Origin: Calothrix brevissima NIES-22
Lineage (GTDB): Bacteria > Cyanobacteriota > Cyanobacteriia > Cyanobacteriales > Nostocaceae
NCBI RefSeq assembly: GCF_002367995.1
Contig: NZ_AP018207.1
Coordinates: 248,001-312,000, forward strand
DNA length: 64,000 nt
Reading direction: 5' to 3'
Shown here: piece by piece, positions 2,465-58,699 of the stretch
Layout: the number at the start of each line of letters is the position of its first letter
Numbering within the stretch: position 1 is the stretch's first letter
Notes under the pieces: model-generated
What the model was told of the DNA's origin: nothing
The model's input: the letters and a program-made list of their open reading frames with translations, nothing else
Database searches by the model: none
Made by a program: the position numbers and the translations under genes

Positions 2465-2490
2465 TACTTAAACTCGATATATATATCGGA
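2465..2490. promoter_or_regulatory. 26-bp dyad site, SBP-cupin-aldolase operon
   Basis: Begins TACTTAAAC, has TCGAT at positions 10-14 and ends ATCGGA. Spacing and centre match the other dyads, but the right half is degenerate. It lies 80 bp before the GTG of the binding-protein gene, a promoter position. Confidence 0.5.
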
Positions 2491-2900
2491 GATTAAAATT
2501 CAGCATACCATCTTTTTGCTTGACTATATAAGCTCAAGCCCAGATTTTTTTGATTTCAGGCATTGCCATGAGCAGAAATCTTATATATAAAGGTTTTTGT
2601 GAGTTGGTATTGCCTGAGTATGCAGTATTATGGTTAGCGGGTGAATCAAACTAGCGTTGCTGGTGAATCAATATTGGCGCACAAATTTCACCTGTATTTT
2701 ACCTACCTTTTTTGCAGAATCAGGGTTGGCGAAATAAGTATATTTTACAAATGTTAAAAAAATATGTAGTTTTTTTAATATCTATTTTTTTTTGATTCCT
2801 GCTTCAATGTGCTTGAACGAAAAATTTTATACTCTTTTAAGATGACGAGAGAAAAAACATAAACTTTCCTCTCACACCATCGTTCAGATAGGAAAATTTT

Positions 2901-2940
2901 GACTGGTAAAAGGCAGATGTAAATAATGTTTTTACCAGTC
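2901..2940. repeat. perfect inverted repeat (GACTGGTAAAA arms)
   Basis: Arms of 11 bp with an 18-base loop. No T-run follows, so it is not a typical intrinsic terminator; it could be part of a small RNA or an operator. Its function is unknown. Confidence 0.5.
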
Positions 2941-3346
2941 AATATCTCAAGATTAGGTATCCCAATCGATCCCAGGTTAATACTCAGTACGCATCACCTT
3001 AAAAGGGGGTCGGAAATATTGAGGTTTGACGTTGGATAGAACGAAATTAAACCCAACTAACTAATGATTGAATTCTCTAATGTTGACTGTTGACTGTTGA
3101 CAGCCCTGATAATTAGTTATGCAATTTAGACGGGCGTTAGCTTATCTCTGGTTATACCTATACCTGAGTTGTTATCGATTAATAATTCTCCGAATAATAA
3201 AATTAGAGAAAACGTGCATTTTCTCTGATTTACTCTGCAATATAAAAAGTCAAAGCTTGTCTAAGTTACATCAGACTCAATCTTGAGCTATCGCCTCTCA
3301 GTTTTTCAATTATTAACAAATCTCCTCATGTGGTGAGGTGGTAATT

Positions 3347-4696
3347 ATGACAAACTTGTCAGTTTCACAAAAGTCAGGAAGCATTCAATTAGCTGAACTG
3401 GCTAAAGACACTATTGTGGCTTTAATCATTCAAGTGACTGGTTTAGTTTTGATATATCTCCTGCAAATATTTCTGGCGCAGTGGATGGGAAGAACTGAAT
3501 ATGGCATTTATGAATATGTCATGTCTTGGTCGTTATTGTTAGCAGTTCCCGCAGAATTAGGGTTACCTACCACGGTTTTGCGTTTGCTTCCTGAATACCG
3601 AGTTAAGCAGGAATGGGGACGTTTGCAAGGTTTAGTTCGTGGTTGTTGGTTACTCGTATTTTCCAACAGTTTACTGTTGATTATCTGCGCTACAGGGACA
3701 ATTTTAGTTATTAATTATTACCATAGTTTTGTCTATGCAACTCCGCTACTGTTGGGGATGGGATTAGTATTACTACAGAGTTTGGCTAGGTTCCAACAAG
3801 AAACAGGAAGGGCGATGGAGGATATTCTTGTAGCATTTATTCCATCGCAAATTATCTGGCCTGTTTTGGTGCTGGCTGGTGGCTTTGTATTTATGCAAAC
3901 CCAGGATGATTTGACTAGCGTACCAATGATTGCGATCGCTTCCGGCATGTTTATCGCGATTGTTGTCGTGCAACTATACTTGTTGTGGAAGAAATTACAC
4001 AGTGATTTTGAAGCAGCAGCGCCAGTTTATGCTTACCGTGAGTGGTTAAATATAGCGGTAATTTTGTTAATTCAACAAGCATCTTTTGGGATTTTGAGCC
4101 AAACCGATACAGTGATGATTGGTTCATTTATCGGCCCGGAAGCAGCAGGTATTTACAACGCAGCAGTAAAAACAGCCGCATGGACAAGTTTCGTTTTACA
4201 AATTGTGAATATGGTAGCTGCACCTGTATTTACAACTTTGTACACTAAAGGGGATATTCCAGAATTACAAAAGGTGGTTTCTTGCGTAACTAATTGGATT
4301 TTCTGGCCGACTGTCGCCATGACAATTGTACTCATGACCTTTACGCAACCTATTCTCAATCTATTTGGTGCAGGTTTTGTTGAAGCGAGTTTGTCTTTAA
4401 AAATTCTGATTATGGGACAGATGGTAAATGCTTTATGTGGTTCCGTAGGGATTTTGATGATTATGACTGGTCATCAAAATAAATCTTTACCTGTAATTGT
4501 TGCTAGTGCCTTACTGAATATAGTCTTGAATGCGATATTAATTCCCATATTTAATATTACTGGGGCTGCGATCGCAACAAGTTTCACCATGATTGTCTGG
4601 AATATTTGGTTAGGTGCTTTGGTTGTTAAATATGTTGGCGTGCGTCCTTCAGTTTTTTACACTCTGTTTGCTAGAGAAAATGAATCCATAACCTAA
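3347..4696 (+). CDS. polysaccharide/oligosaccharide flippase family membrane protein (MviN/Wzx-like)
   Basis: A 449-residue, very hydrophobic protein with about 12-14 predicted membrane helices. It resembles the polysaccharide-biosynthesis (RfbX/Wzx-like) branch of the MOP exporter superfamily: an early helix pair followed by MGRTEYGIYEYV, and later QTDTVMIGSFIGPEAAGIY, a family-typical loop. These proteins flip lipid-linked saccharides across the inner membrane. I chose the ATG at 3347 because GAGGTGG lies five bases before it; a GTG at 3338 would add three residues. A terminator hairpin follows at 4732. It has no evident link to sulfur metabolism. Confidence 0.75.
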   Translation: MTNLSVSQKSGSIQLAELAKDTIVALIIQVTGLVLIYLLQIFLAQWMGRTEYGIYEYVMSWSLLLAVPAELGLPTTVLRLLPEYRVKQEWGRLQGLVRGCWLLVFSNSLLLIICATGTILVINYYHSFVYATPLLLGMGLVLLQSLARFQQETGRAMEDILVAFIPSQIIWPVLVLAGGFVFMQTQDDLTSVPMIAIASGMFIAIVVVQLYLLWKKLHSDFEAAAPVYAYREWLNIAVILLIQQASFGILSQTDTVMIGSFIGPEAAGIYNAAVKTAAWTSFVLQIVNMVAAPVFTTLYTKGDIPELQKVVSCVTNWIFWPTVAMTIVLMTFTQPILNLFGAGFVEASLSLKILIMGQMVNALCGSVGILMIMTGHQNKSLPVIVASALLNIVLNAILIPIFNITGAAIATSFTMIVWNIWLGALVVKYVGVRPSVFYTLFARENESIT

Positions 4697-4731
4697 ATGT
4701 GATGAAACCGTAACTCTGTAAAGTTCTGTAG

Positions 4732-4760
4732 AGGAAAAGGGGAAAAACCTTTTCCTTTTT
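4732..4760 (+). terminator. rho-independent terminator after the flippase gene
   Basis: Stem AGGAAAAGG with CCTTTTCCT around a 7-base A-rich loop, followed directly by a short T-run. It separates the flippase from the metY promoter. Confidence 0.75.
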
Positions 4761-4789: not shown

Positions 4790-4815
4790 TACTGTAAATC
4801 GATAGACTTACGCTA
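4790..4815. promoter_or_regulatory. 26-bp dyad site upstream of metY
   Basis: Reads TACTGTAAATCGATAG and ends CTTACGCTA. The left half and centre match the consensus perfectly; the right half is ACGCTA rather than ACCGTA. It ends 49 bp before the metY ATG. Confidence 0.6.
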
Positions 4816-4858: not shown

Positions 4859-6169
<1,311 letters not shown>

Positions 6170-6278: not shown

Positions 6279-7346
6279 ATGAAATACCAGCATTTAATTT
6301 CCCCACATACTCAGTATTACCATCTCTCGCAGCCGTTTAAGTTAGAGGGTGGTGAAGTTTTAACTGGGGTGCAAATTGCTTATCGAACTTGGGGAAAGTT
6401 GAACTCACTTGGCGATAATGGAGTGCTAATTTGTCATGCTTTGACTGGTTCGGCTGATGCGGATGTTTGGTGGGAAGATTTATTTGGTTCAGGAAAAGCA
6501 TTTGATAGCGATCGCAATTTTATCGTATGCAGCAACATTTTAGGAAGTTGTTACGGTACTACAGGCGCGACTAGCATCAATCCCCAAACCGGAATTCCTT
6601 ACGGCGCATCATTTCCCCCTATTACCATTCGAGATATGGTGCGCTTACAAGCTGAACTAATTCAATATCTAGGAATTAAATCTTTGCAACTGGTAATTGG
6701 TGGTTCCCTGGGGGGAATGCAAGTACTAGAGTGGGCTTTATTATATCCAGAAATTGTGAAAGCGATCGCACCCATTGCTACATCTGGGAGACATTCAGCT
6801 TGGTGTATTGGATTGAGTGAAGCCCAAAGACAAGCTATATATAACGATCCTAACTGGAAAGCTGGGAATTATACAGATAAGGAACCACCCAACCAAGGAT
6901 TAGCCGTCGCGCGAATGATGGCGATGAGTATGTATCGTTATTGGGAAAGCTTTACAGAACGCTTTGGACGACAGTATGATGACTCTGCTGACCAATATGC
7001 GATCGCTAGCTACTTACAACATCATGGACAAAAGCTAGTAGAAAGATTTGATGCCAATACTTACATTACTCTTACCAAAGCGATGGATAGTCATGATATT
7101 GCTCAAGGTCAAGACTATGAATCTGTGTTGCAAAGTATTAAACAACCTGTTTTAGTTGTCGCCATTGATTCTGACATTCTTTATCCCCCAATAGAACAAC
7201 AAGAATTAGCAAATTTCATTCCTAATGCTCAACTAGTTTGCTTAAAATCAACCTACGGACACGATGCATTTTTAGTCGATACAGAAACACTTAACGACTT
7301 TATAATTAACTTTCGCCAAACTGTAGATGTAGTAAATAATTCGTAA
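6279..7346 (+). CDS. metX: homoserine O-acetyltransferase
   Basis: A 355-residue alpha/beta hydrolase of the MetX family. The nucleophile elbow GGSLGGMQ places Ser143. The region ICHALTGSADADVWW is characteristic, and the acid (DILYPP) and base (YGHDAF) of the triad are near the C-terminus. It acylates homoserine with acetyl-CoA, feeding metY directly upstream. An FMN or other domain is absent, so this is the simple enzyme. Some MetX-type proteins use succinyl-CoA; the MetY partner makes acetyl-CoA more likely. ATG at 6279. Confidence 0.92.
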   Translation: MKYQHLISPHTQYYHLSQPFKLEGGEVLTGVQIAYRTWGKLNSLGDNGVLICHALTGSADADVWWEDLFGSGKAFDSDRNFIVCSNILGSCYGTTGATSINPQTGIPYGASFPPITIRDMVRLQAELIQYLGIKSLQLVIGGSLGGMQVLEWALLYPEIVKAIAPIATSGRHSAWCIGLSEAQRQAIYNDPNWKAGNYTDKEPPNQGLAVARMMAMSMYRYWESFTERFGRQYDDSADQYAIASYLQHHGQKLVERFDANTYITLTKAMDSHDIAQGQDYESVLQSIKQPVLVVAIDSDILYPPIEQQELANFIPNAQLVCLKSTYGHDAFLVDTETLNDFIINFRQTVDVVNNS

Positions 7347-12601: not shown

Positions 12602-13417
12602 TCACTCACTCACACTCACAAGTTGAGGAAGTTTGGCAATGGGAATATCTAGAAAATAAGACAATACTTCCCGCCGCCAAGCGTCATATATGACTCCAAT
12701 TCCTTCAATTTCTGCGCCAGTTGCATCGTGGACAATCTGCCAATGTTTTTGTAAATAAGGATTGCGTCGCCGTTGTCCTTCTTCGTCTAGTTCTAATAAC
12801 TGGGCGGCTATTTCTGCTTTTTCTGTTGGTGAGGCTTTATCATATTTACTTTGCCACCAAGCTAAAACTCCAAATCGGTGGACGGCTTCATCAGGTAAAA
12901 TTGTTTGACTGGCAAATTTAGAAGTTTCTGGATCGACAATTTTTGTAGTACGGCTGTTTAAAATTAACTGGGCGACTATATGCAGTTCATAGTGTAATTC
13001 AAAGGCTATGAAACCCAACCAATTACGAATTGGTAAATCGCCCATAAATTCCCAGTGATTTTTTACTTCTTCTACAATCTTTTCTGTAGGGTCTTGTCCT
13101 GATAATTCCCAGACTCGCTGACGAGTAAATTGGGCATGTGCGCCATCATCACCAATTTGGCGGCTTAAAAATAGGTGCAGTTCTGGGTCGGGTATTTGGT
13201 CAATAATTTTGCTACAAACTTGGACAATATATAAATCGTGGGCTGCGCCACCAATGCGGAAGCGATAGAATTTCTCAAAGTCTTCTTTTGTTGTTAGTTG
13301 TCGCGGTTCTTGAATGCGAGTAGTAGGAAAATTTGGGGTGTGTTTAGCAATGATTTTATCGATGGTTTCAATTTCAAACTCAGTTGTCCAAGCTGGGCGA
13401 GTTAAAGTTGCACTCAT
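12602..13417 (-). CDS. ferritin-like diiron protein, paralog 1 (uncharacterised)
   Basis: A 271-residue, mainly helical protein. Four metal-ligand-like helices are visible: AHDL (His60, Asp61), DDGAH (Asp90, Asp91, His94), FELHYELH (Glu140, His142, His146) and DEAVH (Asp176, Glu177, His180). This spacing resembles diiron carboxylate oxygenases and ferritin-like proteins. No transit or membrane segment is present, so it is cytoplasmic. It starts 24 bases after an LLM flavin monooxygenase and precedes an SsuA-like gene. Two paralogs occur at 45868 and 46705 with the same four motifs. A role in oxidising an organosulfur substrate is inferred from context only. I do not recognise a characterised homolog. 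Confidence 0.65.
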   Translation of the reverse strand: MSATLTRPAWTTEFEIETIDKIIAKHTPNFPTTRIQEPRQLTTKEDFEKFYRFRIGGAAHDLYIVQVCSKIIDQIPDPELHLFLSRQIGDDGAHAQFTRQRVWELSGQDPTEKIVEEVKNHWEFMGDLPIRNWLGFIAFELHYELHIVAQLILNSRTTKIVDPETSKFASQTILPDEAVHRFGVLAWWQSKYDKASPTEKAEIAAQLLELDEEGQRRRNPYLQKHWQIVHDATGAEIEGIGVIYDAWRREVLSYFLDIPIAKLPQLVSVSE

Positions 13418-13441: not shown

Positions 13442-14491
13442 TTAAGCTACGAGTTCTCGCGATCGCACTCGTGGCATTACTTCTTCAGCAAAACGTTGCA
13501 TTTCTGGGGTAAAAGGTTGGAATTGCAGCATGAAGGTATCTACACCTACTTCCACAAAATCTGTAATTCTCGCGGCTACAGTGTCATAACTACCAACTAA
13601 CCCCGCCGCAGTCCCGCCATTACTTCCCACCCCTGGATATTTCGCCATATTCTTAAACATGACTACATCTGGTTCCACACCTTTCATCAGTTCGGTTCTG
13701 TCGTCTTGTTGGGCGAGTTCTCGCAGGTATTCATATTCGGCTTGAGCTTCTGCATCAGTCGCTCGCGCAATGACAAAAGCTGACATCGCAAACCCCAGGG
13801 GATTGGGTTTTTTTCGTTCTCGCTTTCTCACATCAGCAATAGTTTCTCTGATGACATCTAAGGGACGCCCATTGAGAAAGAATACATCTGCTGTTTCCAT
13901 TGCGAGATTCTTCGCCGCATCCGATTCTCCACCCAGATATACGAGGGGATGAGGTTGGGCGATAGGACGAGGACGCAAGCATAAATCGCTAATTTGAAAA
14001 TATTCACTATGATAATTAACTTTTTCACCACTCCACAAAGCTTTTACTACTTCCATCCACTGTTGTGAATAGCGATAGCGTTCATCATGGGGTAAGAAAG
14101 GAATTCCAGATTTTTGCAATTCCGGCATAAACCAGGCGCTAATTAAATTAATAGAAAATCTACCGCCACTAATCGCATCAATATTTAATGCCATTTTTGC
14201 CAAAACTACTGGATGAAATAGCAAAGGCTTAATTGCGGCGATAATTTCTATAGATTTAGTAACTTCTGCTAGGGCGGCTGCGGTTGTCCAAGTCTCTAGC
14301 TGGTCTAATTCTTGATTTCTCGGATTAATAATGTGTTCGGCGATGAGAGTGGTGGTAAACCCATAGGCTTCTGCTAGTTGGATGAGTTGTTTAGCTCTGT
14401 TGTAGCTAGCATCACGGGGTTCATACGGGTGGTTCATCGCGCCACAATTGCCGTAAACGGGAATCCAAATCCCGTATCGTGGCTGAGGCAT
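13442..14491 (-). CDS. LLM-class flavin-dependent monooxygenase (SsuD/SfnG-like)
   Basis: A 349-residue bacterial-luciferase-like TIM-barrel enzyme. Typical segments are RYGIWIPVYGN at the start, ISGGRFSINLISAWF, the HDERYRYS phosphate-binding region, LGGESDAA and FVIARATDAEAQAE. SsuD and SfnG use FMNH2 and O2 to split C-S bonds of sulfonates or sulfones and release sulfite or sulfinate. No reductase gene is next to it. It heads the long minus-strand operon reaching to metQ. The paralog at 40079 is similar throughout. The exact substrate is open. Two dyad sites lie in its promoter region. Confidence 0.8.
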   Translation of the reverse strand: MPQPRYGIWIPVYGNCGAMNHPYEPRDASYNRAKQLIQLAEAYGFTTTLIAEHIINPRNQELDQLETWTTAAALAEVTKSIEIIAAIKPLLFHPVVLAKMALNIDAISGGRFSINLISAWFMPELQKSGIPFLPHDERYRYSQQWMEVVKALWSGEKVNYHSEYFQISDLCLRPRPIAQPHPLVYLGGESDAAKNLAMETADVFFLNGRPLDVIRETIADVRKRERKKPNPLGFAMSAFVIARATDAEAQAEYEYLRELAQQDDRTELMKGVEPDVVMFKNMAKYPGVGSNGGTAAGLVGSYDTVAARITDFVEVGVDTFMLQFQPFTPEMQRFAEEVMPRVRSRELVA

Positions 14492-14562: not shown

Positions 14563-14588
14563 TCCGGTTTATTGACCAATTTACCGTA
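14563..14588. promoter_or_regulatory. 26-bp dyad site, LLM-diiron-SBP-met operon
   Basis: Reads TCCGGTTTATTGACC and ends TTTACCGTA; the dyad arms are CCGGTTT and its partner. It is especially like the site at 47976. It lies 72 bp upstream of the minus-strand ATG. Confidence 0.65.
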
Positions 14589-15007: not shown

Positions 15008-15033
15008 TACTAAAAACTGACCGAAATACAGTA
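15008..15033. promoter_or_regulatory. 26-bp dyad site between divergent operons
   Basis: Begins TACTAAAAACTGACC and ends ATACAGTA with the exact 26-bp span. The centre lacks TCGAT. It lies 279 bp before the ssuB-like ATG. Confidence 0.5.
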
Positions 15034-15311: not shown

Positions 15312-16106
15312 ATGGGATTGAAAACACACGGAATGCACTTGAAATTATCAGGACTAAGTAAATCTTTTGGCGCAAAACAAGTTCTACAAAATATTGATTT
15401 AGATATTCAGCCAGGGGAATTTGTAGCTATTGTTGGTCGTAGTGGTTGCGGGAAGAGTACCATGCTACGCCTAATTGCAGGCTTAGATGCACCGAGTGCA
15501 GGGGGTGTGTTTTTGAATAATGAACAATCCCACCAGCAGATAAATCCCACTATCAGGATGATGTTTCAAGATTCGCGACTTCTACCTTGGCAGCGAGTGA
15601 TTGCTAATGTGGAACTAGGTTTACTGGGTTCTAGTTCTAAGGTGACAGCAAGGCAGACAGCTTTACAAGTGTTGCGGGCGGTGGGATTAGAAGACAGGGC
15701 TAATGAATGGCCTTCTGTCCTTTCTGGTGGACAACGGCAACGGGTGGCGTTAGCTAGAGCTTTAACTAGTCATCCTTCGCTATTGCTGCTAGATGAACCT
15801 CTAGGGGCGCTAGATGCCTTAACCCGCATTGAAATGCAGCAATTATTAGAAAATTTATGGCAAGAACAGCAATTTACGGCATTGCTAATTACCCATGATG
15901 TAGAAGAAGCGGTAGTGTTAGCAGACCGAGTGGTGTTGATTGAAGATGGTCAAATTGGTCTAGATGTCAAGATTGATTTTCCCCGTCCTCGCTCTCGGGG
16001 AGATGCAGAATTTGCGCAGACGGTGGAGAAGATTTTACAACGAGTGATGACGAAACAAGATAGCGATCGCTCATCTGATTATGCCCTAGATTCGGAAGCA
16101 GCTTAG
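15312..16106 (+). CDS. sulfonate-type ABC transporter ATP-binding protein (SsuB/TauB-like)
   Basis: A 264-residue ABC ATPase. Walker A is GRSGCGKST, the Q-loop region [12 protein letters not shown] is the signature form of SsuB/NrtD/TauB, the signature is LSGGQRQR and Walker [13 protein letters not shown]. An AGGAGG site lies eight bases before the ATG. It should energise sulfonate import with a SsuC permease and the SsuA-like proteins, but no such permease is present in the window. The next gene, an SfnB-like oxidoreductase, follows after a 45-base spacer of ATTCGTA repeats. Gene symbol not given since sulfonate and taurine versions cannot be separated. Confidence 0.88.
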
Positions 16107-16151: not shown

Positions 16152-17339
16152 ATGGTGCAACTATTAGTTAAAGAAGAATCTCAAGATTGGATTGGAATAG
16201 CATCTTCTGTAGCTGCGGAACTTAGAGCTACTGCAGTAGAAAGAGACCAAAAAGCGGGAATTCCCGATATAGAAATTCAACTGTTGCGGGAAAGTGGCTT
16301 ATTACCTTTAGTCGTACCTCAAGAATATGGCGGGATCGGTGCAACTTGGGTAGAAGCTTTTAAGGTGATTCAACAACTGTCAACCGCAGATGGTTCTGTT
16401 GGACAGTTGTACGGGAATCACCTGAATTTAACAGCTTTAGCTCATGTTTCTGGCACACCAGAGCAAAAAGAAAGATATTACCGCGAAACAGCCGAAAAAA
16501 ATCTCTTTTGGGCAAATGCGATTAATACCAGGGATACTAGGCTGAAAATTACCCCCGATGGCGAAAATTTCCGGGTAGATGGGGTCAAAAGCTTTGGTAC
16601 TGGTGTGGCGATCGCAGATTTGCGTGTATTCTCCGCCCTGCAAGATGGTGTAGAATTGCCCTGGTTGTTTGTCATTCCTAAAGATAGACCAGGGGTAGTT
16701 TCCAACCAAGATTGGGATAACATTGGACAACGGCGCACAGATAGCGACACATTCACCTTTCATGATGTATTGGTAAAAAAAGATGAAATCCTGGGATATC
16801 CTCATCCTACTGATAGTGCTTTTGGTACATTTTTGGGAATCATCGCTCAATTAACCAAAACCTATATATATTTAGGGATTGCTGAAGGTGCGCTAGCTGC
16901 GGCTAAAGAATACACGAAAACTCAAACTAGACCTTGGATTACCTCTGGAGTAGACAGCGCTAGCAAAGACCCGTATATTTTGCGGCATTATGGCGAATTT
17001 TGGACTCAACTACAAGCCGCCATTGCATTGAGCGATCGCACAGCCGCCCAAGTACAAAAAGCTTGGGATAAAGGATCTGATTTGACTTTTGAGGAGAGAG
17101 GAGAAATTGCGATCGCTGTTTTCTCCGCCAAAGCCTTAGTTACCCGGGTGGGATTAGATATCACCAACGGTATCTTTGAAGTCACCGGTACTAGATCCAC
17201 GGCTACTAAATACGGCTTTGACCGCTACTGGCGTGACTTGCGCACCTTTACCCTCCACGATCCAGTCGATTACAAACTCAATCACATAGGTAATTGGGTA
17301 TTAAATCAAGAGTTACCAATTATTACGCAGTACTCTTAA
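16152..17339 (+). CDS. acyl-CoA-dehydrogenase-like flavoprotein (SfnB/DszC-like sulfur acquisition)
   Basis: A 395-residue protein with the acyl-CoA dehydrogenase fold: an N-terminal helical domain (GIPDIEIQLLRESGLLPL), a middle beta domain with WDNIGQRRTDSDTFTFHDV, and a C-terminal helical domain ending RYWRDLRTFTLHDPVDYK. The text RRTDSDT and FHDVLV is typical of the SfnB/DszC group, which are FMNH2-dependent monooxygenases or associated oxidoreductases in sulfur acquisition, not fatty acid enzymes. It is in one operon with the SsuB-like ATPase. Whether it hydroxylates a sulfur compound or a different substrate is unknown. Confidence 0.78.
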   Translation: MVQLLVKEESQDWIGIASSVAAELRATAVERDQKAGIPDIEIQLLRESGLLPLVVPQEYGGIGATWVEAFKVIQQLSTADGSVGQLYGNHLNLTALAHVSGTPEQKERYYRETAEKNLFWANAINTRDTRLKITPDGENFRVDGVKSFGTGVAIADLRVFSALQDGVELPWLFVIPKDRPGVVSNQDWDNIGQRRTDSDTFTFHDVLVKKDEILGYPHPTDSAFGTFLGIIAQLTKTYIYLGIAEGALAAAKEYTKTQTRPWITSGVDSASKDPYILRHYGEFWTQLQAAIALSDRTAAQVQKAWDKGSDLTFEERGEIAIAVFSAKALVTRVGLDITNGIFEVTGTRSTATKYGFDRYWRDLRTFTLHDPVDYKLNHIGNWVLNQELPIITQYS

Positions 17340-18388: not shown

Positions 18389-19753
18389 ATGAGCAAAAAA
18401 CGTCAGTTTCGGTTAGGTGCATTTATTCAAGCCACTGGACATCATATCTCTGCATGGCGACACCCTGACGCCCAAATAGATGCAGGGTTAAATTTCGAGC
18501 ATTACAAAGAAATTACTCAAACAGCCCAACGCGGGTTATTTGATGCAGTCTTTCTCGCAGATAGTCCAGGAGTTTGGGGTAACGGTGGCGAAAATCAGTG
18601 TCGTAATGGTAAAATCGCCCATTTCGAGCCTGTGACTCTCTTCTCTGCTTTATCTTCAGTAACTCAAAACATCGGTTTCATCGCTACCGCCTCAACTACA
18701 TACGAAGAACCCTACACCCTAGCACGGAAGTTTGCTTCTCTAGATTACTTGAGTAAAGGACGCGCCGGTTGGAATGTCGTTACCACAGGTAATGATAACG
18801 CCGCCGCTAATTTTGGATTGGAAAATCACCCAGATCACAGCCTGCGTTATGAACGGGCGGAAGAATTTGTCGAAGTCGTCAAAGGACTATGGGATAGTTG
18901 GGAAGATGATGCCTTTATTCGTGACAGAGAATCAGGCATTTATTTCGATCCAGAGAAGCTACACATACTCAACCATAAAGGTAAACATTTCTCTGTCAAA
19001 GGCCCCTTAAACGTTGCTCGTCCGCCTCAAGGTTACCCTGTAATTGTGCAAGCTGGAGCCTCGGAAGCTGGGCGAGATTTAGCTGCGCGTACTGCTGAGG
19101 TAATTTTCACCGCGAATCAAACCCTCGCAGATGCTCAGGAATTTTATGCCGATATCAAGGGCAGATTGGCAAAATATGGACGTTCTCCGGATGATTTAAA
19201 AATTATGCCTGGTGCTTTCCCAATTATTGGGCGTACAGAAGAAGAAGCACAAGAAAAATACGAGTTTCTGCAATCATTAATTCATCCAGATGTCGCTTGG
19301 GGTATTTTAAAGACCTATTACAAGGGTGTGGATCTATCGAAATATTCTCTAGATGATATAGCTCCCGAACTACCCACCGACACCAACACCAATAAGAGCC
19401 GTCTGAAATTAGTTAAAGATTTAGCTACTCGCGGTAGTTTAACGCTGCGTCAATTGTACCGTTCTCTAGCTACTGCAAGAGGTCATCGTACTATACTTGG
19501 TACTCCCGAAACCATTGCCGATCAATTAGAAGAATGGTTTAACAACGGTGCAGCAGATGGCTTTAATATCATGCCTCCAATTCTACCTACAGGATTAGAT
19601 GACTTTGTAAATTTAGTTGTCCCCATCCTGCAAAAACGCGGACTATTCCGCACTGAATATGAGGGTAGCACCTTGCGCGAAAACCTTGGCTTACGTCGTC
19701 CTGGTAATCGTTTGGCTGCACAACAAGCAAATGAAAAATTAGTATCAGCATAA
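18389..19753 (+). CDS. NtaA/SnaA/DszA/DmoA-family flavin monooxygenase
   Basis: A 454-residue LLM enzyme of the large NtaA subfamily. It begins RLGAFIQATGHHISAWRHPDA, a subfamily signature, and has the flavin pocket text ASTTYEEPYTLARKFASLDYLSKGRAGWNVVT and SEAGRDLAARTAEVIF. Members include DmoA (dimethyl sulfide), DszA (dibenzothiophene sulfone) and NtaA (nitrilotriacetate). FMNH2 must come from a separate reductase. It leads the plus-strand run with amidohydrolase, FMO-like, esterase and aldo/keto reductase genes. The context makes an organosulfur substrate plausible but does not prove it. The upstream gap 17832-18388 holds the shared block at 17963 and nothing else I can identify. Confidence 0.8.
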   Translation: MSKKRQFRLGAFIQATGHHISAWRHPDAQIDAGLNFEHYKEITQTAQRGLFDAVFLADSPGVWGNGGENQCRNGKIAHFEPVTLFSALSSVTQNIGFIATASTTYEEPYTLARKFASLDYLSKGRAGWNVVTTGNDNAAANFGLENHPDHSLRYERAEEFVEVVKGLWDSWEDDAFIRDRESGIYFDPEKLHILNHKGKHFSVKGPLNVARPPQGYPVIVQAGASEAGRDLAARTAEVIFTANQTLADAQEFYADIKGRLAKYGRSPDDLKIMPGAFPIIGRTEEEAQEKYEFLQSLIHPDVAWGILKTYYKGVDLSKYSLDDIAPELPTDTNTNKSRLKLVKDLATRGSLTLRQLYRSLATARGHRTILGTPETIADQLEEWFNNGAADGFNIMPPILPTGLDDFVNLVVPILQKRGLFRTEYEGSTLRENLGLRRPGNRLAAQQANEKLVSA

Positions 19754-20108
19754 ATTTTGCTAGGTGCGTTATCCCAATTCACAAAGATTCGGATACAGAT
19801 TCAAATCCAGAAATTATTGCTAATACCAATTCGCTATGAAGATGCATTTAATATTTAATTAACCGCCAAGGCGCCAAGAGCGCCAAGAGAAAAGAAAGAA
19901 TTATTAAGTGCAAGTTTACAGAGAGTTAGTATAAATCTGGATTTCTGAATTTTGAATTGGTATAACCCTCCAAATAATTCTTTTGGACTTTTCACTCATG
20001 CTTAAACTCTACTGTTTCAAGCGTGTTTTTTGTAGAGCGCCTCCGATTTCAGGTTTTCCTGATGCTCTACATAACCTGAAAATCTTAGCTAAATATGAGG
20101 AAGAAAAA

Positions 20109-21647: not shown

Positions 21648-21906
21648 GGCATAGGGCATGGGGCATTGGAATTGCTCTATTTATCCTCCTTGTCTCCCTT
21701 GTCCTCCTTGGGAGCATCCCAAATGTGCAAAAACGCCCTCACCCTATAAGGGTGGGGCTAGAAATACGAAGCCTGCCTTCTTTTGCTAAAAGTTTGATAG
21801 CCTGCGAAGGCAGGCTTTGTTGGTATAGCAATACCCTAGAAGGGTATTGCGTCAAAATTGGGATGCTTCCTCCTCCTTCTCCCCCAATCCATAACGGGAA
21901 ATCGAC
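21648..21906. repeat. tandem repeats and palindromic dispersed repeat
   Basis: GGGCATAGGGCATGG and CTTGTCTCC units are followed by a large palindromic repeat (about 21754-21850) with the core AGCCTGCGAAGGCAGGCT. The same family is at 36307-36384. A nested small stem (AATACCC/GGGTATT) is at the end. No gene. Confidence 0.7.
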
Positions 21907-23349: not shown

Positions 23350-23362
23350 GTCTAGGTAGTCC

Positions 23363-23430: not shown

Positions 23431-23475
23431 AAAAAATAATCAATGCCCAATGCCCAAATTATTTAGGATTCACCT

Positions 23476-33003: not shown

Positions 33004-33072
33004 GTTAATTATTGTGCAGTGTACTTGTCACACTGCAAAGCCACAGTTTGCAAGGAATGGGAATCACCCCTT

Positions 33073-39515: not shown

Positions 39516-40078
39516 TATTAAGTCTCCTCTAGTTAGTTCAATATGATTAATCTTTGGCTTTTAGATTAATTTTATGGAGATAAAATTCGGTTTTCTCGAA
39601 AAGTTTATTTAAGGCTTGTCTTAATAATTTTATAGTTTATATAAAAATTTTCACCTGAGTAGGAAAATATTTTTTATTTAACCGCCAAGTGCGCCAAGTA
39701 CGCCAAGAGTTAGAGAAAAATTTAGAATTAGTAAGTTTACTAGATATTTTATCAAAGCTAGGATTTATTATAGAATTTGCCATTTGCACATTATAATTAA
39801 GTTCATTTTTTGGGAAATGTATGTTGCAAATTGCTTGCCTCGTAATAGGGCGATCGCAGTAAATATTTAACCTCTCGCAAATTTCTAGGTTAGTATTTAT
39901 TGAATACCCATCAATGAAAAAATATTAATAATAATTTTGATTAAAATACGTTAAGTCGATAAATTTGCCGTATTTTATAGATAAAAACTTATCATACACA
40001 AAGAAAACAAGCAAGCTCCAGTGAACCCAAAAGACAAGGAAACAGAGGGCAAATGCCCAATGCCCCATGCCCAATGCC
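39516..40078. repeat. 563-base gap with dyad and CGCCAAG repeat
   Basis: Spacer upstream of the MFS-COQ4 operon, holding a CGCCAAG repeat (about 39680-39708) and the dyad at 39947-39972. No supported gene. Confidence 0.6.
39947..39972. promoter_or_regulatory. 26-bp dyad site, distal to MFS-COQ4 operon
   Basis: Reads TACGTTAAGTCGATAAATT and ends GCCGTA, and the flanks AAAA and TTTT extend the dyad to about 34 bp. It is 432 bp from the TTG of the MFS gene, the farthest of the set, and faces the 3' end of the LLM gene on the other side. Confidence 0.6.
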
Positions 40079-41152
40079 CTACACCAACTGTAACTGCCGC
40101 ACGCGAGGCATAATTTCTTCAGCAAAACGGGTCATTTCCCTGACAAAAGGATTGAATTGCAGCATAAATGTATCAATACCTGCATCAGAAAAAGCGGCAA
40201 TTCTTGTAGCAACTGTATCGTAGCTGCCAACTAAGCCTGCAGCTGTGCCACCATTACCACCAACGGCAGGATTTTTAGCGAAGAGTCGGAACATAACTGC
40301 ATCTGGATCTACACCTTTAGCGACGCTTAATTTCAAATGTTCTTCTCTTTGCTGAAGTTCTGTAAGTCGCTGGAGTTCTGCTTGCGCTTCTGCATCGGTA
40401 GGTCGAGCAATGACGAAGGCTGATAAACCAAAACGCACTGGTTGAGGTAGCGTAGGCGTAGCCCGCCGTAGGCATCGCGATCTACTCAATACTTGTTTAA
40501 TTACCTGACGTACATCTTCTATGGGCTGACCATTGATAAAGTATACATCTGCTTGTTCTGCCGCTAAAATCTGGGCGGGATCGGATGCGCCACCAAGGTA
40601 AATCCGGGGATAGGGTTTGGCGATGGAAGTAGGATTTAACCTTAAATCTGTGATTTTGAAATATTCTCCCTCAAAGTTAACCCTCTCCCCGCTCCACAAA
40701 GCTCTGACAACTTTTAACCATTCACCAGAATAGCGGTAACGTTCATCATGGGGAGGAAAGGGAATATTTGTGCGTTCCATTTCTGGACGAAACCAAGCGC
40801 TAATCAAGTTGATGGCGAAACGTCCGCGACTAATTGCGTCAATCCCTAACGCCATCTTTGCTAGAACAGCTGGATGGAATAATAAAGGTTTAATGGCGGC
40901 GATAATCTCAATTTTTTCTGTCGCCTCAGCTAAAGCCGCAGAAGCAGTCCAAGTTTCTAGCTGCTCTAACTCTAAACTGCGTGGGTTGGCGAGATGCTGT
41001 GCTACCAAGGTTGTAGCGTATCCCAAGCGTTCAGCTGCTAAAATCAGCGATCGCGATCGCTCATAACTCGCATCGATGGGTTCTTCTTGAGTATCTAGAG
41101 GGCCAAAATTACCACCAACAGGTGCCCAAATACCATAACGAGGTTCTGACAT
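40079..41152 (-). CDS. LLM-class flavin-dependent monooxygenase (SsuD/SfnG-like)
   Basis: A 357-residue paralog of 13442-14491, with the same motifs: PRYGIWAPVGGNFG, ISRGRFAINLISAWF, HDERYRYSG, LGGASDPAQ and FVIARPTDAEAQAE. I chose the ATG at 41152 behind a GGAG ribosome site; a TTG extension is possible. At about residues 225-236 the protein has seven extra residues relative to its paralog, made of the in-frame dispersed repeat at 40449-40479. It is divergent to tauD, and one dyad serves both promoters. It likely cleaves a C-S bond of a sulfonate or sulfone. Confidence 0.8.
   Translation of the reverse strand: MSEPRYGIWAPVGGNFGPLDTQEEPIDASYERSRSLILAAERLGYATTLVAQHLANPRSLELEQLETWTASAALAEATEKIEIIAAIKPLLFHPAVLAKMALGIDAISRGRFAINLISAWFRPEMERTNIPFPPHDERYRYSGEWLKVVRALWSGERVNFEGEYFKITDLRLNPTSIAKPYPRIYLGGASDPAQILAAEQADVYFINGQPIEDVRQVIKQVLSRSRCLRRATPTLPQPVRFGLSAFVIARPTDAEAQAELQRLTELQQREEHLKLSVAKGVDPDAVMFRLFAKNPAVGGNGGTAAGLVGSYDTVATRIAAFSDAGIDTFMLQFNPFVREMTRFAEEIMPRVRQLQLV
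40449..40479. repeat. dispersed repeat inserted in-frame in the LLM gene
   Basis: The sequence AGCGTAGGCGTAGCCCGCCG, continuing TAGGCATCGC, is a common Nostoc-type small dispersed repeat. It encodes Arg/Pro-rich residues in a segment where the paralog has seven fewer residues and does not disrupt the frame. Confidence 0.6.
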
Positions 41153-41223
41153 GGTGAACTCCAAGTTAATTGAGAGAATGAGGAGATGAGGTAGGGGAAA
41201 TACTGTGTTGGATTATTTTATAA

Positions 41224-41249
41224 TACGGTAAATTTATCGAGTTAGTGTA
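41224..41249. promoter_or_regulatory. 26-bp dyad site between LLM and tauD
   Basis: Reads TACGGTAAATTTATCGA and ends TAGTGTA; on the minus strand the right half is perfect ACCGTA with a TCGAT centre. It is 72 bp from the LLM start and 87 bp from the tauD start, so one site could regulate both divergent genes. Confidence 0.65.
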
Positions 41250-41336: not shown

Positions 41337-42299
41337 ATGAGCAATAAGCATATTGAAGTCAAACCGGTAGCTGGTCACATCGGTGCAGAAATCGGTGGTG
41401 TAGACCTTTCTCATCCTCTTTCAGATGAAGCAGTAGCCGAAATTCGCCAAGCGCTGTTGAAATGGAAAGTCATATTCTTTCGCAATCAGAACATTGACCA
41501 CGCAGCACAAATTGCTTTCACATCTCGGTTTGGCGAAGTGACTTATGCACACCCCCACGAGGATGAACCAATCGAAGGTTTTGCCGAAATCTTACCAATC
41601 GACCGCAGCCGCTACGAACGGAAAAATGGACTGCGTCGTTCCAGCTATGAAAACCGTTGGCACACCGATGTCACAGCAGTTGTTAACCCACCAGCAGGTT
41701 CTATTTTGCGTGCGGTTAACGTCCCTAGCTTTGGTGGTGACACACAGTGGACTAATTTAGTTGCTGCTTACGAGGGTCTATCAGCACCCGTGAAGGCGCT
41801 AGCAGACACATTAAAAGCACAACATCACTTCAATGCACGCTTGCGTTTATCCAGCAGCAGCAAACTTGCACAACGCATCGCCGCCAATCCCCAGGTTTCC
41901 ATTCACCCAGTCGTGCGAGTGCATCCAGAGACAGGCGAACGTGCATTATTTGTGAATCCTGGCTTTACCTCTCACATTCTCGATGTATCGCCACAAGAAA
42001 GCGATTTACTACTAGAGTTGTTCTTCAATCAGATTACCAAACCTGCTTATACCACCCGTTTCCATTGGAACAACGGTGATATTGCCTTCTGGGACAACCG
42101 CGCCACCGCACATTTAGCACCCCAGGATCTAGATCATATAGAAGTCGAGCGCGTACTTTATCGCACCACAATTACTGGTGATATCCCCGTCGGCCCCGAT
42201 GGCTTCCGCTCGCAAATCGTTGAAGGTGAGCCTTTAACTAGCGAATTACCAACCGTACTCAAAAACAAAGCCGAACAGCGACAACCCGTGCTTTCATAA
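41337..42299 (+). CDS. tauD: TauD/TfdA-family 2-oxoglutarate dioxygenase
   Basis: A 320-residue Fe(II)/2-oxoglutarate oxygenase. The facial triad is His109-x-Asp111 (RWHTDVTAV) and His259 (ATAHLAP), and Arg272 is the likely 2-oxoglutarate ligand. TauD hydroxylates taurine to give sulfite and aminoacetaldehyde; alkylsulfatase AtsK is a close relative. The GGAG ribosome site precedes the ATG. It follows the shared dyad promoter. Taurine is the usual substrate, but an alkyl sulfate or sulfonate cannot be excluded. Confidence 0.85.
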   Translation: MSNKHIEVKPVAGHIGAEIGGVDLSHPLSDEAVAEIRQALLKWKVIFFRNQNIDHAAQIAFTSRFGEVTYAHPHEDEPIEGFAEILPIDRSRYERKNGLRRSSYENRWHTDVTAVVNPPAGSILRAVNVPSFGGDTQWTNLVAAYEGLSAPVKALADTLKAQHHFNARLRLSSSSKLAQRIAANPQVSIHPVVRVHPETGERALFVNPGFTSHILDVSPQESDLLLELFFNQITKPAYTTRFHWNNGDIAFWDNRATAHLAPQDLDHIEVERVLYRTTITGDIPVGPDGFRSQIVEGEPLTSELPTVLKNKAEQRQPVLS

Positions 42300-46704: not shown

Positions 46705-47520
46705 CTAATCGTCAATGCTGACAAGTTTGGGTAACTGAGAAACTGGAATATCGAAGAAGTAAGACAATACCTCTTGTCGCCAAGTATCATAAATTACACC
46801 TGTCCCCTCAACTTCAATACCCAGCGCCCGACGGCTAACTTTTTCATGCTCTTTTAAATAGGGTTTGCGACGGCGTTGTACTTCTTCGTCTGCTTCGATT
46901 ACCTGGGCGGCTAACTCAGCTTTTTCTGTTGGCGAAGCTTTGTCAAATTTACGTAACCACCACTCTGCAACACCTGCACGGTGAAATGTTTCATCTGGGA
47001 TAATTCTCGCTGTCGCAAAGCTGGAGGATTCTGGATCGTACAGCCTTGATAAACGGCGATTTAATGAGCCAATGGCAACAATATGATGTTCATAATGCAG
47101 TTCAAAAGCTAAAAAGCCTAACCAGCCTCGTCGGGGTATATCTCCCATAAAATCCCAATGCTTTTGTACTTGCTTTTGGATATCTTCAATGGGATCGTGA
47201 CCAAATAATGCTTCTACACGGCGACGAGTATTTTCTGCATGTGCGCCATCATCACCTAATTGGCGACTTAAAAATAACTGCAATTCTGGATCGGGAATTT
47301 TATCGATAACGTTGGCGACAACTTGCACAATAAATAAATCGTGGGCTGCACCACCAACACGGAAATGGTAAAAATTATCTAGTTCTTCGGCTGTAGCGAT
47401 CGCTTTTGGATCTTGCAAGCGCTTTTTCGGAATATGGGGCGCGTGTTTATCAATTAACCTATCAATAGTTTCATTTTCAAATTCAATTGTCCAAGCTGGA
47501 CGAGTGATAATAGCAGTCAT
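46705..47520 (-). CDS. ferritin-like diiron protein, paralog 2 (uncharacterised)
   Basis: A 271-residue protein very like paralog 1 (start ...TRPAWTIEFENETIDRLI; DDGAHA; FELHYEHHIV; DETFH). It heads the minus-strand run leading to paralog 3 and an SsuA-like gene. The dyad at 47976 lies 456 bp upstream. As for the other two, a diiron oxygenase or oxidase function is an inference from the ligands. Confidence 0.65.
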   Translation of the reverse strand: MTAIITRPAWTIEFENETIDRLIDKHAPHIPKKRLQDPKAIATAEELDNFYHFRVGGAAHDLFIVQVVANVIDKIPDPELQLFLSRQLGDDGAHAENTRRRVEALFGHDPIEDIQKQVQKHWDFMGDIPRRGWLGFLAFELHYEHHIVAIGSLNRRLSRLYDPESSSFATARIIPDETFHRAGVAEWWLRKFDKASPTEKAELAAQVIEADEEVQRRRKPYLKEHEKVSRRALGIEVEGTGVIYDTWRQEVLSYFFDIPVSQLPKLVSIDD

Positions 47521-47720: not shown

Positions 47721-47975
47721 GAACATCCGCGACTCATCAGAATTAATGCGATACACCACTAGTAAATTTAAGTTGTGAAATTTGTTGTCATCCACACATT
47801 TTTTGCAACTGTGGGATAGTCTTTGGCTCATAATTAGCTAGGGTTTAAGAAAAAAGTGAGCCTAGTTGCTGGAATTTGAAATCTTACTCCCTTCTCTAGG
47901 CTCAGGCGGCATAACTGTTCAGAACCTTGGCAATCAGCGTTTGAAAGTAAATGTTTAATTTCTTAAACCATAAAC

Positions 47976-48001
47976 TACGGTAATTTGACCAATAAACCGT
48001 A
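47976..48001. promoter_or_regulatory. 26-bp dyad site, near-perfect palindrome
   Basis: Reads TACGGTAATTTGACC and ends AAACCGTA, and the flanks ATAAAC and GTTTAT extend the perfect arms to 12 bp. It is the most symmetric of all sites and shows the recognition is a dyad. Confidence 0.7.
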
Positions 48002-48104
48002 GTTTATAAATATGAGATTTGCATATATGGCGATAAAAAACAAGGGGTGAGATTTTCAAGCTTGCTTCTTGAGGTGAACTGTGGTAGGTTCATATTGCAG
48101 AAAA

Positions 48105-48130
48105 TACAGTAGCTCGACTGATTTACCGTA
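48105..48130. promoter_or_regulatory. 26-bp dyad site upstream of class II aldolase
   Basis: Reads TACAGTAGCTCGACTG and ends TTTACCGTA. It is 253 bp before the ATG of the aldolase. Together with the site at 47976 it makes a pair 129 bp apart. Confidence 0.6.
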
Positions 48131-48382: not shown

Positions 48383-49162
48383 ATGGTGCAAACTTCCATC
48401 GTCCGCAATGGTACTCTCGTTAAACCACCAACCTTTACCTCCACAGAAGCAGAGCGTCGTCATCGCAAAGAACGGTTAGCAGCAGCTTTACGCATTTTTG
48501 CTCGCTTAGGTTTTGCTCAAGGATTAGGAGGACACATCACAGCCCGCGATCCGGAACTTACCGATCATTTTTGGGTAAATCCTTTTGGGATTCATTTCAG
48601 CCGCGTGCGCGTTTCCGACTTAATCTTGGTTAATGCTCAAGGTGAAGTTGTTCAAGGTAATGGCGCACTCAATCAAGCTGCATACGCTATTCACTCCCAA
48701 ATTCACGAAGCCCGTCCAGATGTAGTAGCGGCGGCTCATGCTCATTCCTTCTATGGCAAAACTTGGTCAGCACTAGGTCGCTTAATCGATCCAATTACCC
48801 AAGATTCTGCGGTTTTCTACCAAGATCATGCTTTATTTGATGATTACAAAGGCATTGTGTTAGATACCAGTGAAGGAAAACGCATTGCTGAAGGATTAGG
48901 TAATAAAAAAGCGGCAATTCTCCGCAATCATGGATTATTAACCGTAGGACACACTGTAGATGAGGCGGCTTGGTGGTTCATTCGTCTAGAAGATGCGACT
49001 AAATCCCAGTTGCTAGCCGAATCCGTAGGTAAACCAATTCCTATTGAGCATGATCTTGCTTTGAGTATTCAACAACGCAATGGTACTCATGAAGCAGGTT
49101 GGCGTGCATTCCAATATTTGTGGGATGAAATTACCCGCGATCAACCAGATTTATTGGATTGA
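48383..49162 (+). CDS. class II aldolase/adducin family protein
   Basis: A 259-residue class II aldolase. The Zn ligands are His119 and His121 (AAHAHS) and His183 (RNHGLL). An AGGAG ribosome site precedes the ATG. The partial protein at 1-506 is close to it. Substrates of this family are phosphorylated sugars or hydroxy aldehydes, and sulfur-linked members exist (methylthioribulose-phosphate dehydratase); the present ligand is unknown. It is first on the plus strand before the SsuD-like gene, separated from it by a MITE-like element. Confidence 0.82.
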   Translation: MVQTSIVRNGTLVKPPTFTSTEAERRHRKERLAAALRIFARLGFAQGLGGHITARDPELTDHFWVNPFGIHFSRVRVSDLILVNAQGEVVQGNGALNQAAYAIHSQIHEARPDVVAAAHAHSFYGKTWSALGRLIDPITQDSAVFYQDHALFDDYKGIVLDTSEGKRIAEGLGNKKAAILRNHGLLTVGHTVDEAAWWFIRLEDATKSQLLAESVGKPIPIEHDLALSIQQRNGTHEAGWRAFQYLWDEITRDQPDLLD

Positions 49163-57112: not shown

Positions 57113-57450
57113 TCGAGCTTGTCAGCCATCAACTTTGCATTAATTGTAATGTCTGCGTTCAAGTTTGCCCTACCAATGTCTTTGACGCAGTTCCTAATCA
57201 ACCACCTGCGATCGCGCGTCAGGAAGATTGTCAAACTTGCTTTATGTGTGAAGCATACTGTCCAGCAGATGCGCTTTATGTTGCACCCCAATCTCATACC
57301 AATGTTGCAGTTAACGAGGATGAGTTAATTGACAGTGGGATTATGGGTGAATATCGCCGCATTTTAGGTTGGGGATATGGTAGAAAAAACAACAGTGAAT
57401 TAGACACTGCTCATAAATTGCGCCAACTACCACGCCCTTATCAAAGTTAG
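57109..57450 (+). CDS. 2[4Fe-4S] ferredoxin (AprB-like)
   Basis: A 113-residue protein with two clusters: CINCNVCVQVCP and CQTCFMCEAYCP. It has a C-terminal tail of about 45 residues without cysteine. It overlaps the flavoprotein and would pass electrons to or from the FAD. In AprB a longer tail wraps the alpha subunit, which is consistent in general form. Confidence 0.87.
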   Translation: MIELVSHQLCINCNVCVQVCPTNVFDAVPNQPPAIARQEDCQTCFMCEAYCPADALYVAPQSHTNVAVNEDELIDSGIMGEYRRILGWGYGRKNNSELDTAHKLRQLPRPYQS

Positions 57451-57456
57451 TTCACT

Positions 57457-57490
57457 GTTGACGGTTGACTGTTAACTGTTAACCGTCAAC
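57457..57490. terminator. inverted repeat GTTGACGGTT
   Basis: Perfect 10-bp arms GTTGACGGTT and AACCGTCAAC directly after the ferredoxin gene, a family member of 44394-44432. The remaining gap to the HAD gene has a CGCAGAGGCGCAAAG repeat near 57545-57570. Confidence 0.5.
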
Positions 57491-57650
57491 GATTTGAAAC
57501 GGAACAATTTCTGGCGTTGCACAATTGCGGAATGATTTAGCTCACGCAGAGGCGCAAAGACGCAGAGAGAATAAGGAGTTTAAGATTTTAATACATCGAA
57601 ATTTATCCTCTAATTCAGCAATGCCTAATTTCTTTTTTCGTTTTTCATAA

Positions 57651-58325
57651 ATGAAGCATCTTTGTGTCATTTTTGATTTGGATGGAACTTTAGTTGATAG
57701 TGAAAAGCTTTGTAACCAAGCATTTATCGATTTGCTACCTTTTATAAATGAATCAATTGACAGTCTTATTTGTCGATATCGTGGCAGAAAGTTAGCTTTA
57801 ATTTTAGCGGATATAGAAATAAGATATAGCGTAAAGCTGCCGATAGATTTTGAAGCAACATATCGTCAAAGAGTAAATGAATTATTTGAATTTTATTTAC
57901 AGCCAGTAACAGGCGTTCCAGAGATGCTCAAAACTTTGGAATATCCTATTTGCGTGGCTTCAAGTGCACCCATAGCAAAAATTCGTCAGGCTCTAAATGT
58001 CACAAATCTATCCCATTATTTTGGCGTAGACGCGGAGCGGCTTGTCGTCAGACATCGCTTATTTAGTTCTTATGATGTAGGCTCGTGGAAACCCGACCCA
58101 GGTTTATTTTTATACGCAGCTAATCAAATGGGATTCCCACCCGAATCTTGTGTTGTTATAGAAGATAGCGATGTCGGAATTCAAGCTGCACATTCAGCCG
58201 GAATCTATGCTTTGAAATATTCTACAGAGGAGAAAGCAGAGACACAAAATAATGTGTTTTCTCATATGAAATATCTGGGAAAGCGGCTGGATGATATTTA
58301 CGCGCTGAAATGCGATCGCTCATAA
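57651..58325 (+). CDS. HAD-family phosphatase (beta-phosphoglucomutase-like)
   Basis: A 224-residue HAD hydrolase. Motif I is FDLDGTLVDS (Asp9, Asp11), motif II CVASSAP, motif III KPDPGLF and motif IV VIEDSDVG. It removes phosphate from a small metabolite. Around residues 125-136 it carries VDAERLVVRH, coded by an in-frame dispersed repeat (58023-58058) with no equivalent in typical members. ATG at 57651. Confidence 0.85.
   Translation: MKHLCVIFDLDGTLVDSEKLCNQAFIDLLPFINESIDSLICRYRGRKLALILADIEIRYSVKLPIDFEATYRQRVNELFEFYLQPVTGVPEMLKTLEYPICVASSAPIAKIRQALNVTNLSHYFGVDAERLVVRHRLFSSYDVGSWKPDPGLFLYAANQMGFPPESCVVIEDSDVGIQAAHSAGIYALKYSTEEKAETQNNVFSHMKYLGKRLDDIYALKCDRS
58023..58058. repeat. dispersed repeat inserted in-frame in the HAD gene
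   Basis: GTAGACGCGGAGCGGCTTGT and CGTCAGACATCGC form a small dispersed repeat, related to one at about 26027-26056. It adds roughly ten residues between the cap and motif III and keeps the frame. Confidence 0.6.
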
Positions 58326-58699
58326 AATAGCCCAGGATATGTAATAAGTTAATAACTTTTGGTGACAGGGCATATCGAGAATCGTTGCCTGAATCAGGAA
58401 TCCTTCTATTGCGATAGCCGATGAGTTGTCAGGCTATATCAATGCCAGTAAACAAAGTTCTTGACTTATTTTTGCTTAAGAGGTAGGTTATCAATATTGT
58501 CTTAAATACGGTAAGTACATCGATATATAGTATGATACAAATTTAAAACAAGATAAACTTTTTTACAATAGCGCACATTCATGGCAATTTTCAATAAATG
58601 AAAAATTGCTAATTTTTTGCATATTAATAGACTGATGAATATTTATCAGCAATATTGAGTCTGAATTTTGATTTCTTTTTGTTAACAGTCAACACCACT
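58326..58699. other. gap upstream of the FGE gene
   Basis: Holds the dyad at 58507-58532 and no other element I can support. An open frame extends upstream of 58700 to a TTG at 58655, but a signal sequence begins only at 58700. Confidence 0.5.
58507..58532. promoter_or_regulatory. 26-bp dyad site, FGE-sulfatase operon
   Basis: Reads TACGGTAAGTACATCGAT and ends TAGTA. On the minus strand the right half is perfect ACCGTA and the centre is ATCGAT. It lies 168 bp before the GTG at 58700. Confidence 0.65.

Follow-up and report, generated by a model that had tools for sequence, protein, structure and literature searches.

What do the sulfur genes of Calothrix brevissima NIES-22 share in their promoters, and which protein recognizes it? 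In a 64 kb stretch of this cyanobacterium (contig NZ_AP018207.1, positions 248,001 to 312,000; the whole stretch is called the window below), a palindromic dyad recurs upstream of genes for organosulfur metabolism. From comparisons of sequence, we consider it fairly probable that the dyad serves as operator for a sulfur-acquisition regulon of cyanobacteria and that the regulator holding it is a dimeric Rrf2-family repressor, CymR-like and coupled to the cysteine synthase CysK.

Dyad sites in the window

A preliminary description of the window had claimed about twelve shared sites. A symmetric matrix was trained on ten of the 12 listed sites, leaving out the weak site at 15251 and the degenerate site at 2465. 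When each training site was left out in turn, nine of the ten outscored every other position not used for training, and the site at 31548 came third. The site at 2465, which was never trained on, scored 15.4 and ranked first among the untrained window positions. Eleven window positions, ten of them the training sites, reached a score of 14 or more; 50 sequences simulated with a third-order Markov model of the window gave 0.1 such positions on average. The site at 15251 scored 3.3 at rank 33 and was rejected, so that 11 of the 12 sites stand. They are listed here without strand, with leave-one-out ranks for the training sites.

2465–2490, dyad core (degenerate, score 15.4), 79 bp upstream of the substrate-binding protein gene 1300–2385 (−; PF09084)
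4790–4815, dyad core, 43 bp upstream of metY 4859–6169 (+), then metX 6279–7346 (+); rank 1
14563–14588, dyad core, 71 bp upstream of the luciferase-like monooxygenase gene 13442–14491 (−; PF00296); rank 1
15008–15033, dyad core, 278 bp upstream of the ABC ATPase gene 15312–16106 (+); rank 1
31548–31573, dyad core with one weak arm, 120 bp upstream of the nitroreductase gene 30822–31427 (−; PF00881); rank 3
32978–33003, dyad core near the 5′ end of the methyltransferase-like open reading frame (ORF) 32953–33729 (+); rank 1
39947–39972, dyad core, 431 bp upstream of the MFS–Coq4 fusion ORF 37365–39515 (−); rank 1
41224–41249, dyad core between the divergent luciferase-like monooxygenase gene 40079–41164 (−, 59 bp away) and TauD gene 41337–42299 (+, 87 bp away); rank 1
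47970–48007, full 38 bp operator with perfect 12 bp arms (core 47976–48001), in the divergent gap between 46705–47520 (−) and 48383–49162 (+); rank 1
48105–48130, second dyad core of the same gap, 252 bp upstream of the class II aldolase-domain gene 48383–49162 (+); rank 1
58507–58532, dyad core, 122 bp upstream of the FGE-sulfatase-factor gene 58655–59704 (+); rank 1

The site at 47976 had been called a near-perfect palindrome, and its arms are indeed perfect over 12 bp. The claim that the sites lie in gaps upstream of genes holds for most of them; the exception is 32978, which falls within the mechanically longest ORF 32953–33729, whose true start is probably further downstream. The statement that nearly all organosulfur promoters carry the dyad was too strong, since the regions before the cluster 18389–25200 and before 55472 contain no position with a score above 8.

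Among the genes behind the dyads, metY and metX reach their NCBIfam cut-offs. The ABC ATPase gene 15312–16106, previously named SsuB, is followed by an SfnB/DszC-like gene (16152–17339, +) that lies below both NCBIfam cut-offs, and the FGE-sulfatase-factor gene is followed by a sulfatase-like gene (59694–62054, +), also below the cut-offs. The dyad at 32978 further precedes a glutathione S-transferase (GST) gene (33916–35151) and a substrate-binding protein gene (35209–36216). ORF 37365–39515 joins an MFS transporter and a Coq4 domain in a single reading frame. Two genes downstream of dyads, both previously labelled diiron, found no family at the thresholds used, in Pfam or NCBIfam for 12602–13417 and in NCBIfam for 46705–47520; their products are candidates for uncharacterized organosulfur enzymes.

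Shape and conservation of the element

The dyad had been described as a symmetric element with a fixed span of 26 bp. The symmetry and the span are both kept in related genomes; however, the conserved element is longer, about 38 bp, and reads ATAAA(A/C)-TACGGTAAATCGATCGATTTACCGTA-(G/T)TTTAT, with a consensus spacing of GTA-N12-TAC. Where only one side of the dyad faces a gene (27 sites), conserved sequence extends about six bases past the core on both sides, as ATAAA(A/C) and (G/T)TTTAT, and the same flanks occur in 25 sites of other genomes that were picked by core score alone. We also considered a −10 box at the edge of the dyad, where TAnnnT is present in 37 of 52 oriented sites (divergent sites being counted twice); this was rejected because the gene-distal flank of the 27 one-sided sites is equally conserved.

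Of 155 genomes of the class, 92 contain a match at E ≤ 0.05 to a model of the 38 bp element, and 55 contain one at E < 1e-3. The model was built from 53 of the 65 collected sites, the other 12 having been left out by hand; as it was trained partly on genomes of the searched order, the fairest tests are the families outside that order and the control phylum. In the latter, the phylum of Tenuibacillus, 5 of 149 genomes match at E ≤ 0.05 and one at E < 1e-3 (E 7.4e-4), each with a single site, and none of the adjoining genes resembled the reference set. A strict pattern of 14 plain bases, run on one genome per species for 84,980 species, matched at least 116 stretches; among those listed, 106 are cyanobacterial and ten are not.

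These ten stretches, three of which (among the matches listed) come from Clostridia and form long, almost perfect, terminator-type palindromes, are what one would cite for a mobile repeat or terminator-like element in place of an operator. We regard this explanation as highly improbable. The cyanobacterial sites share a degenerate consensus and not a copied sequence, and of the 113 cyanobacterial strict-pattern matches listed, 111 are intergenic, compared with 577 of 2180 random positions in the same loci (60 of these positions come from three non-cyanobacterial loci). A sulfur-set gene starts within 450 bp of 77 of the 113 sites and of 285 of the 2180 random positions, where the set comprises genes of the window, of the C. 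brevissima genome and of the plasmid pANL that were judged sulfur-linked and is thus partly defined by the dyads themselves. For a narrower set without GST, AKR, methyltransferase, nitroreductase, aldolase, diiron, FRD and similar genes, the counts are 49 of 113 and 173 of 2180.

Proteins of the window are 94–99% identical to counterparts in Nostoc, Dendronalium and Dolichospermum contigs, and for this reason the 155 class genomes are taken to be cyanobacterial. The best site of several small genomes is directly before the gene for a sulfate-binding protein; the corresponding operon of Synechocystis is described as induced by sulfur starvation (PMC2491639). On pANL, a plasmid of Synechococcus elongatus, the best position is weak (10.4) and lies 35 bp before an Rrf2 gene within a sulfur gene cluster. 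An unrelated gene contains the second-best position (9.4), and no gap preceding another sulfur gene scores above 6.0, so that the link of the weak pANL site to the dyad regulon is suggestive only. The Rrf2 protein encoded there (L118:31647–32081) has an MFYI tail, and its gene is surrounded by other members of the cluster, namely cysK, cysE and genes for ABC transporters.

Dyads across the C. brevissima genome

The window belongs to a genome of 9.26 Mb. Scanning both strands of it with the window matrix gave 66 matches at E ≤ 10, with 150 of 3389 first-look candidates scored. We read 20 genome stretches, nearly all chosen for holding or adjoining matches, and these contain 42 matches with a score of at least 12, seven of them within mechanically called ORFs; at scores of 19 or more, all 23 matches lie between ORFs. 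The adjoining genes include relatives of the window genes (substrate-binding proteins, SsuB, TauD, luciferase-like monooxygenases, an amidohydrolase and a GST), as well as genes for a sulfate-binding protein, CysT, serine acetyltransferase, cysteine synthase, an Rrf2 regulator, a CRP-family regulator, an arylsulfotransferase and a protein resembling mercaptopyruvate sulfurtransferase. Other neighbours have no evident sulfur role, namely MgtC, an MFS protein, a chorismate-mutase-domain protein, a GNAT protein and several methyltransferases. One of the top matches lies between rrf2-cysK and the divergent cysE, two lie before the CRP gene and one lies before sbpA-cysT.

The genome-wide scan that the preliminary description had proposed thus places the high-scoring matches in gaps, many of them before sulfur genes. 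Together with the span and symmetry kept in relatives, this supports its suggestion of one dimeric regulator acting on one sulfur regulon. That regulon does contain organosulfur genes, but it is wider than was thought and takes in the sulfate permease, cysE, cysK and two regulator genes. These two genes, one for a CRP protein similar to CysR and the other for an Rrf2 protein similar to CymR, are the regulator genes with their own site that had been sought, and both are located outside the window.

Three further loci deserve mention. At one of them (L027, G000:C1:6351848–6354777), an aminotransferase gene and an IS605-type OrfB gene flank a dyad. Beside a weak dyad, a row of short ORFs is related to diiron, SfnB and NlpA genes (L032, G000:C1:728548–730942) and looks like a decaying cluster. 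Lastly, two genomes and the sulfur cluster of S. elongatus have MgtC/SapB-family genes at dyads or close to them (L031:10515–11051, L118:34100–34648 and L123:1653–2156), a hint of a sulfur-linked role for MgtC in cyanobacteria.

The candidate regulator

To compare the two candidates, the dyad, Rrf2 and CRP searches were made on the same 155 class genomes, with presence cut-offs of E ≤ 1e-21 for Rrf2 and E ≤ 1e-25 for CRP. Rrf2 was matched in 133 genomes and CRP in 89. At E ≤ 0.05, the dyad is present in 91 of the 133 genomes with Rrf2 and in one of the 22 without (Fisher p 9e-9), whereas for CRP the counts are 61 of 89 with a match and 31 of 66 without. At E < 1e-3, the dyad occurs in 55 of 133 genomes with Rrf2 and in none of the 22 without (p 5e-5). 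The sole dyad genome lacking an Rrf2 match (G195) has only a distant Rrf2 protein with no YYI tail; it is also the only one of seven listed genomes with CRP but no Rrf2 match in which the dyad was found (E = 0.0056). In six of 17 genomes searched (L200, L204, L206, L207, L210 and L212), the dyad precedes a gene resembling SbpA, CysT or a transport ATPase even though CRP gave no match there. By these counts, Rrf2 is nearly necessary for the dyad and CysR is not, while CysR marks the genomes with rich regulons; the evidence for this is good but not conclusive.

The Rrf2 protein itself contains a winged-helix domain of the family (PF02082, E 3.4e-35) and is matched by phmmer to CymR (2y75, E 3.3e-16). 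The Rrf2 protein whose gene adjoins cysK is 155 amino acids long. The C-terminus is YYI or FYI in 57 of 58 Rrf2 entries and the final isoleucine is present in all 58 (one gene, L134/L178, is counted twice); in 40 of the 58, cysK follows on the same strand at a distance of at most 320 bp. Four distant Rrf2 paralogs, 32–36% identical, end in FVV, FVV, FIV and FVI, and CysE of C. brevissima ends in GAGI. A tree of the Rrf2 proteins, weakly resolved outside the smaller of its groups, separates a widespread group, in which cysK usually follows the gene, from this smaller group, which includes the dyad-bearing gene of C. brevissima. A common RYL(E/D)Q motif occupies the presumed recognition helix in 19 of 20 aligned proteins. 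In S. elongatus, the BadM/Rrf2 gene Synpcc7942_2585 is listed as rising about 2.4-fold in phosphate starvation (PMC7401256).

Several observations weigh against assigning the dyad to Rrf2. First, the NCBIfam equivalog cut-off for CymR is not reached (90.8 bits compared with 195), and we therefore claim that the protein works like CymR, not that it is CymR. Second, three Rrf2 paralogs of C. brevissima bear the tail, which leaves more than one gene as a candidate for the binder, and one of the four distant paralogs also has a terminal isoleucine. Third, dyad-bearing rrf2-cysK promoters would be expected, but only two of 30 Rrf2 loci (L039 and L040) have an upstream site of 12 or more, and most type-B Rrf2 loci outside the nearest kin of C. 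brevissima (L176–L183) lack cysK directly downstream. Fourth, 42 of the 133 Rrf2-bearing genomes have no dyad. Fifth, 18 of the 20 listed genomes lacking Rrf2 fall in three families (f34, f43 and f52), and four of those in f43 are less than 90% complete; the contrast therefore reflects few independent losses, which keeps it short of conclusive. Finally, at E < 1e-3 the dyad correlates with the CRP gene more strongly by p-value than with Rrf2, being present in 48 of 89 genomes with a CRP match and in seven of 66 without (p 1e-8).

This last correlation also speaks for an operator belonging to CysR, the CRP-family sulfur regulator, with Rrf2 merely a member of the regulon. In 15 of the 20 loci read from 60 genomes of the order, a dyad of score 12 or more stands before the CRP gene or the operon presumed to contain it, compared with the two of 30 for Rrf2, and CysR reportedly controls sulfur genes in Synechococcus (the work of Nicholson and Laudenbach in 1995). 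We nevertheless judge this reading improbable. If CysR were the binder, it should be found wherever the operator is, and yet the dyad is present in 31 of 66 genomes with no CRP match at E ≤ 1e-25 (G188 reaches E 1.2e-6) and, at the stricter dyad threshold, in the seven of 66 given above, although a more diverged CysR could escape the search. The recognition helix of the CRP protein, STRVTITRILG, resembles that of NtcA, whose half-sites are arranged as GTA-N8-TAC, unlike the GTA-N12-TAC of the dyad, and a conserved span of 26–38 bp is long for a CRP dimer. NtcA-type GTA-N8-TAC sequences beside the dyads of 116 sites show no excess, with ten observed and 9.8 in shuffles. The CysR-like protein is thus probably a target itself, and a second regulator rather than the dyad binder. 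In one genome (G058, L099), the CRP and Rrf2 genes are divergent and three dyads lie between them.

A third, unlinked regulator could instead bind the dyad and have both CysR and Rrf2 as targets. This would account for the rrf2-cysK promoters, most of which lack a dyad, and for G195, where a marginal dyad coexists with only a distant Rrf2 protein without the YYI tail. However, no third regulator with its own dyad was present among the annotated genes, although many dyad-adjacent ORFs are unannotated and no profile search for all transcription factors was made. We consider this explanation unlikely, and the CymR-like Rrf2 protein remains our preferred binder.

Proposed mechanism

We infer a CymR-like repressor with CysK as its sensor because of the YYI and FYI tails, the linkage to cysK and the published behaviour of CymR and CysK. 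CymR is characterized as a repressor (PMC2869319). Partners of CysK, B. subtilis CymR among them, are described as inserting a terminal isoleucine into the CysK active site (PMC12895370), and CysK is reported to stabilize CymR on promoter DNA about 7-fold (PMC4961446). By analogy, when sulfur is sufficient, the C-terminal YYI tail of Rrf2 would dock in the active site of CysK, and the Rrf2–CysK complex would keep hold of the operator over the promoter. In sulfur shortage, O-acetylserine would build up and displace the tail from CysK, and the genes would be derepressed.

The spacing of some dyads may fit repression. For 62 gene–dyad pairs, the reference set contains a relative of the gene; in 11 of these pairs, no more than 30 bp separate the end of the core from the mechanically predicted start codon, and four of the 13 LLM3-type genes of conserved length (381–385 amino acids) are among them. 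If these starts are right, such spacing leaves little room for an activator site upstream of the −35 element.

A broader version of the proposal describes a class-wide, previously undescribed master sulfur repressor in cyanobacteria, an Rrf2 protein often encoded beside cysteine synthase. It would employ that enzyme to sense sulfur, with its YYI tail docking in competition with CysE, would act on the 38 bp operator and stand above CysR, and in large genomes such as that of C. brevissima would govern dozens of sulfur-scavenging promoters. To this version we assign an even chance.

Comparison with known systems

The closest counterpart is CymR–CysK of Bacillus subtilis and Staphylococcus aureus, which shares the Rrf2 domain, the C-terminal isoleucine tail, the linkage to cysK and targets in sulfur and cysteine acquisition. 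In contrast, the cyanobacterial regulon adds the sulfate permease and a large organosulfur set, the operator is about 38 bp, the Rrf2 protein lies below the CymR equivalog cut-off, and coupling to CysK and the response to O-acetylserine are putative here. IscR also has an Rrf2 domain, and its sites are long, imperfect dyads; its function in Fe–S assembly differs from the sulfur-acquisition targets found here, and the three-cysteine [2Fe–2S] triad, with the spacing of IscR, is absent from the 20 aligned Rrf2 proteins, although scattered cysteines occur in many proteins of the widespread type. CysR of S. elongatus is likewise a sulfur regulator, and the CysR-like CRP genes here carry the dyad; it differs in that 31 dyad genomes have no CRP match and that its NtcA-like helix predicts another half-site spacing. 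In proteobacteria, the organosulfur genes ssu, tau and sfn are controlled by SfnR and CysB/Cbl, which belong to other regulator families and bind other DNA sites. The target functions are alike, and no SfnR or CysB/Cbl gene was present among the annotated dyad neighbours.

Implications

The sulfur-starvation response of one cyanobacterium has been profiled (PMC2491639). Our literature searches, which did not extend to subscription journals and regulon databases, turned up no cyanobacterial sulfur operator, class-wide sulfur regulon or Rrf2 sulfur regulator. A CysK-coupled Rrf2 repressor is known from Firmicutes, whereas the cyanobacterial operator, the class-wide regulon and its organosulfur expansion, as deduced here from genome sequences, seem to be new. 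An operator together with a candidate sensor makes the regulation of the sulfur-starvation response directly testable, and the dyad predicts which uncharacterized monooxygenases, transferases and transporters are sulfur-scavenging genes. If the proposal is true, CysK-coupled repression would reach beyond Firmicutes to phototrophs.

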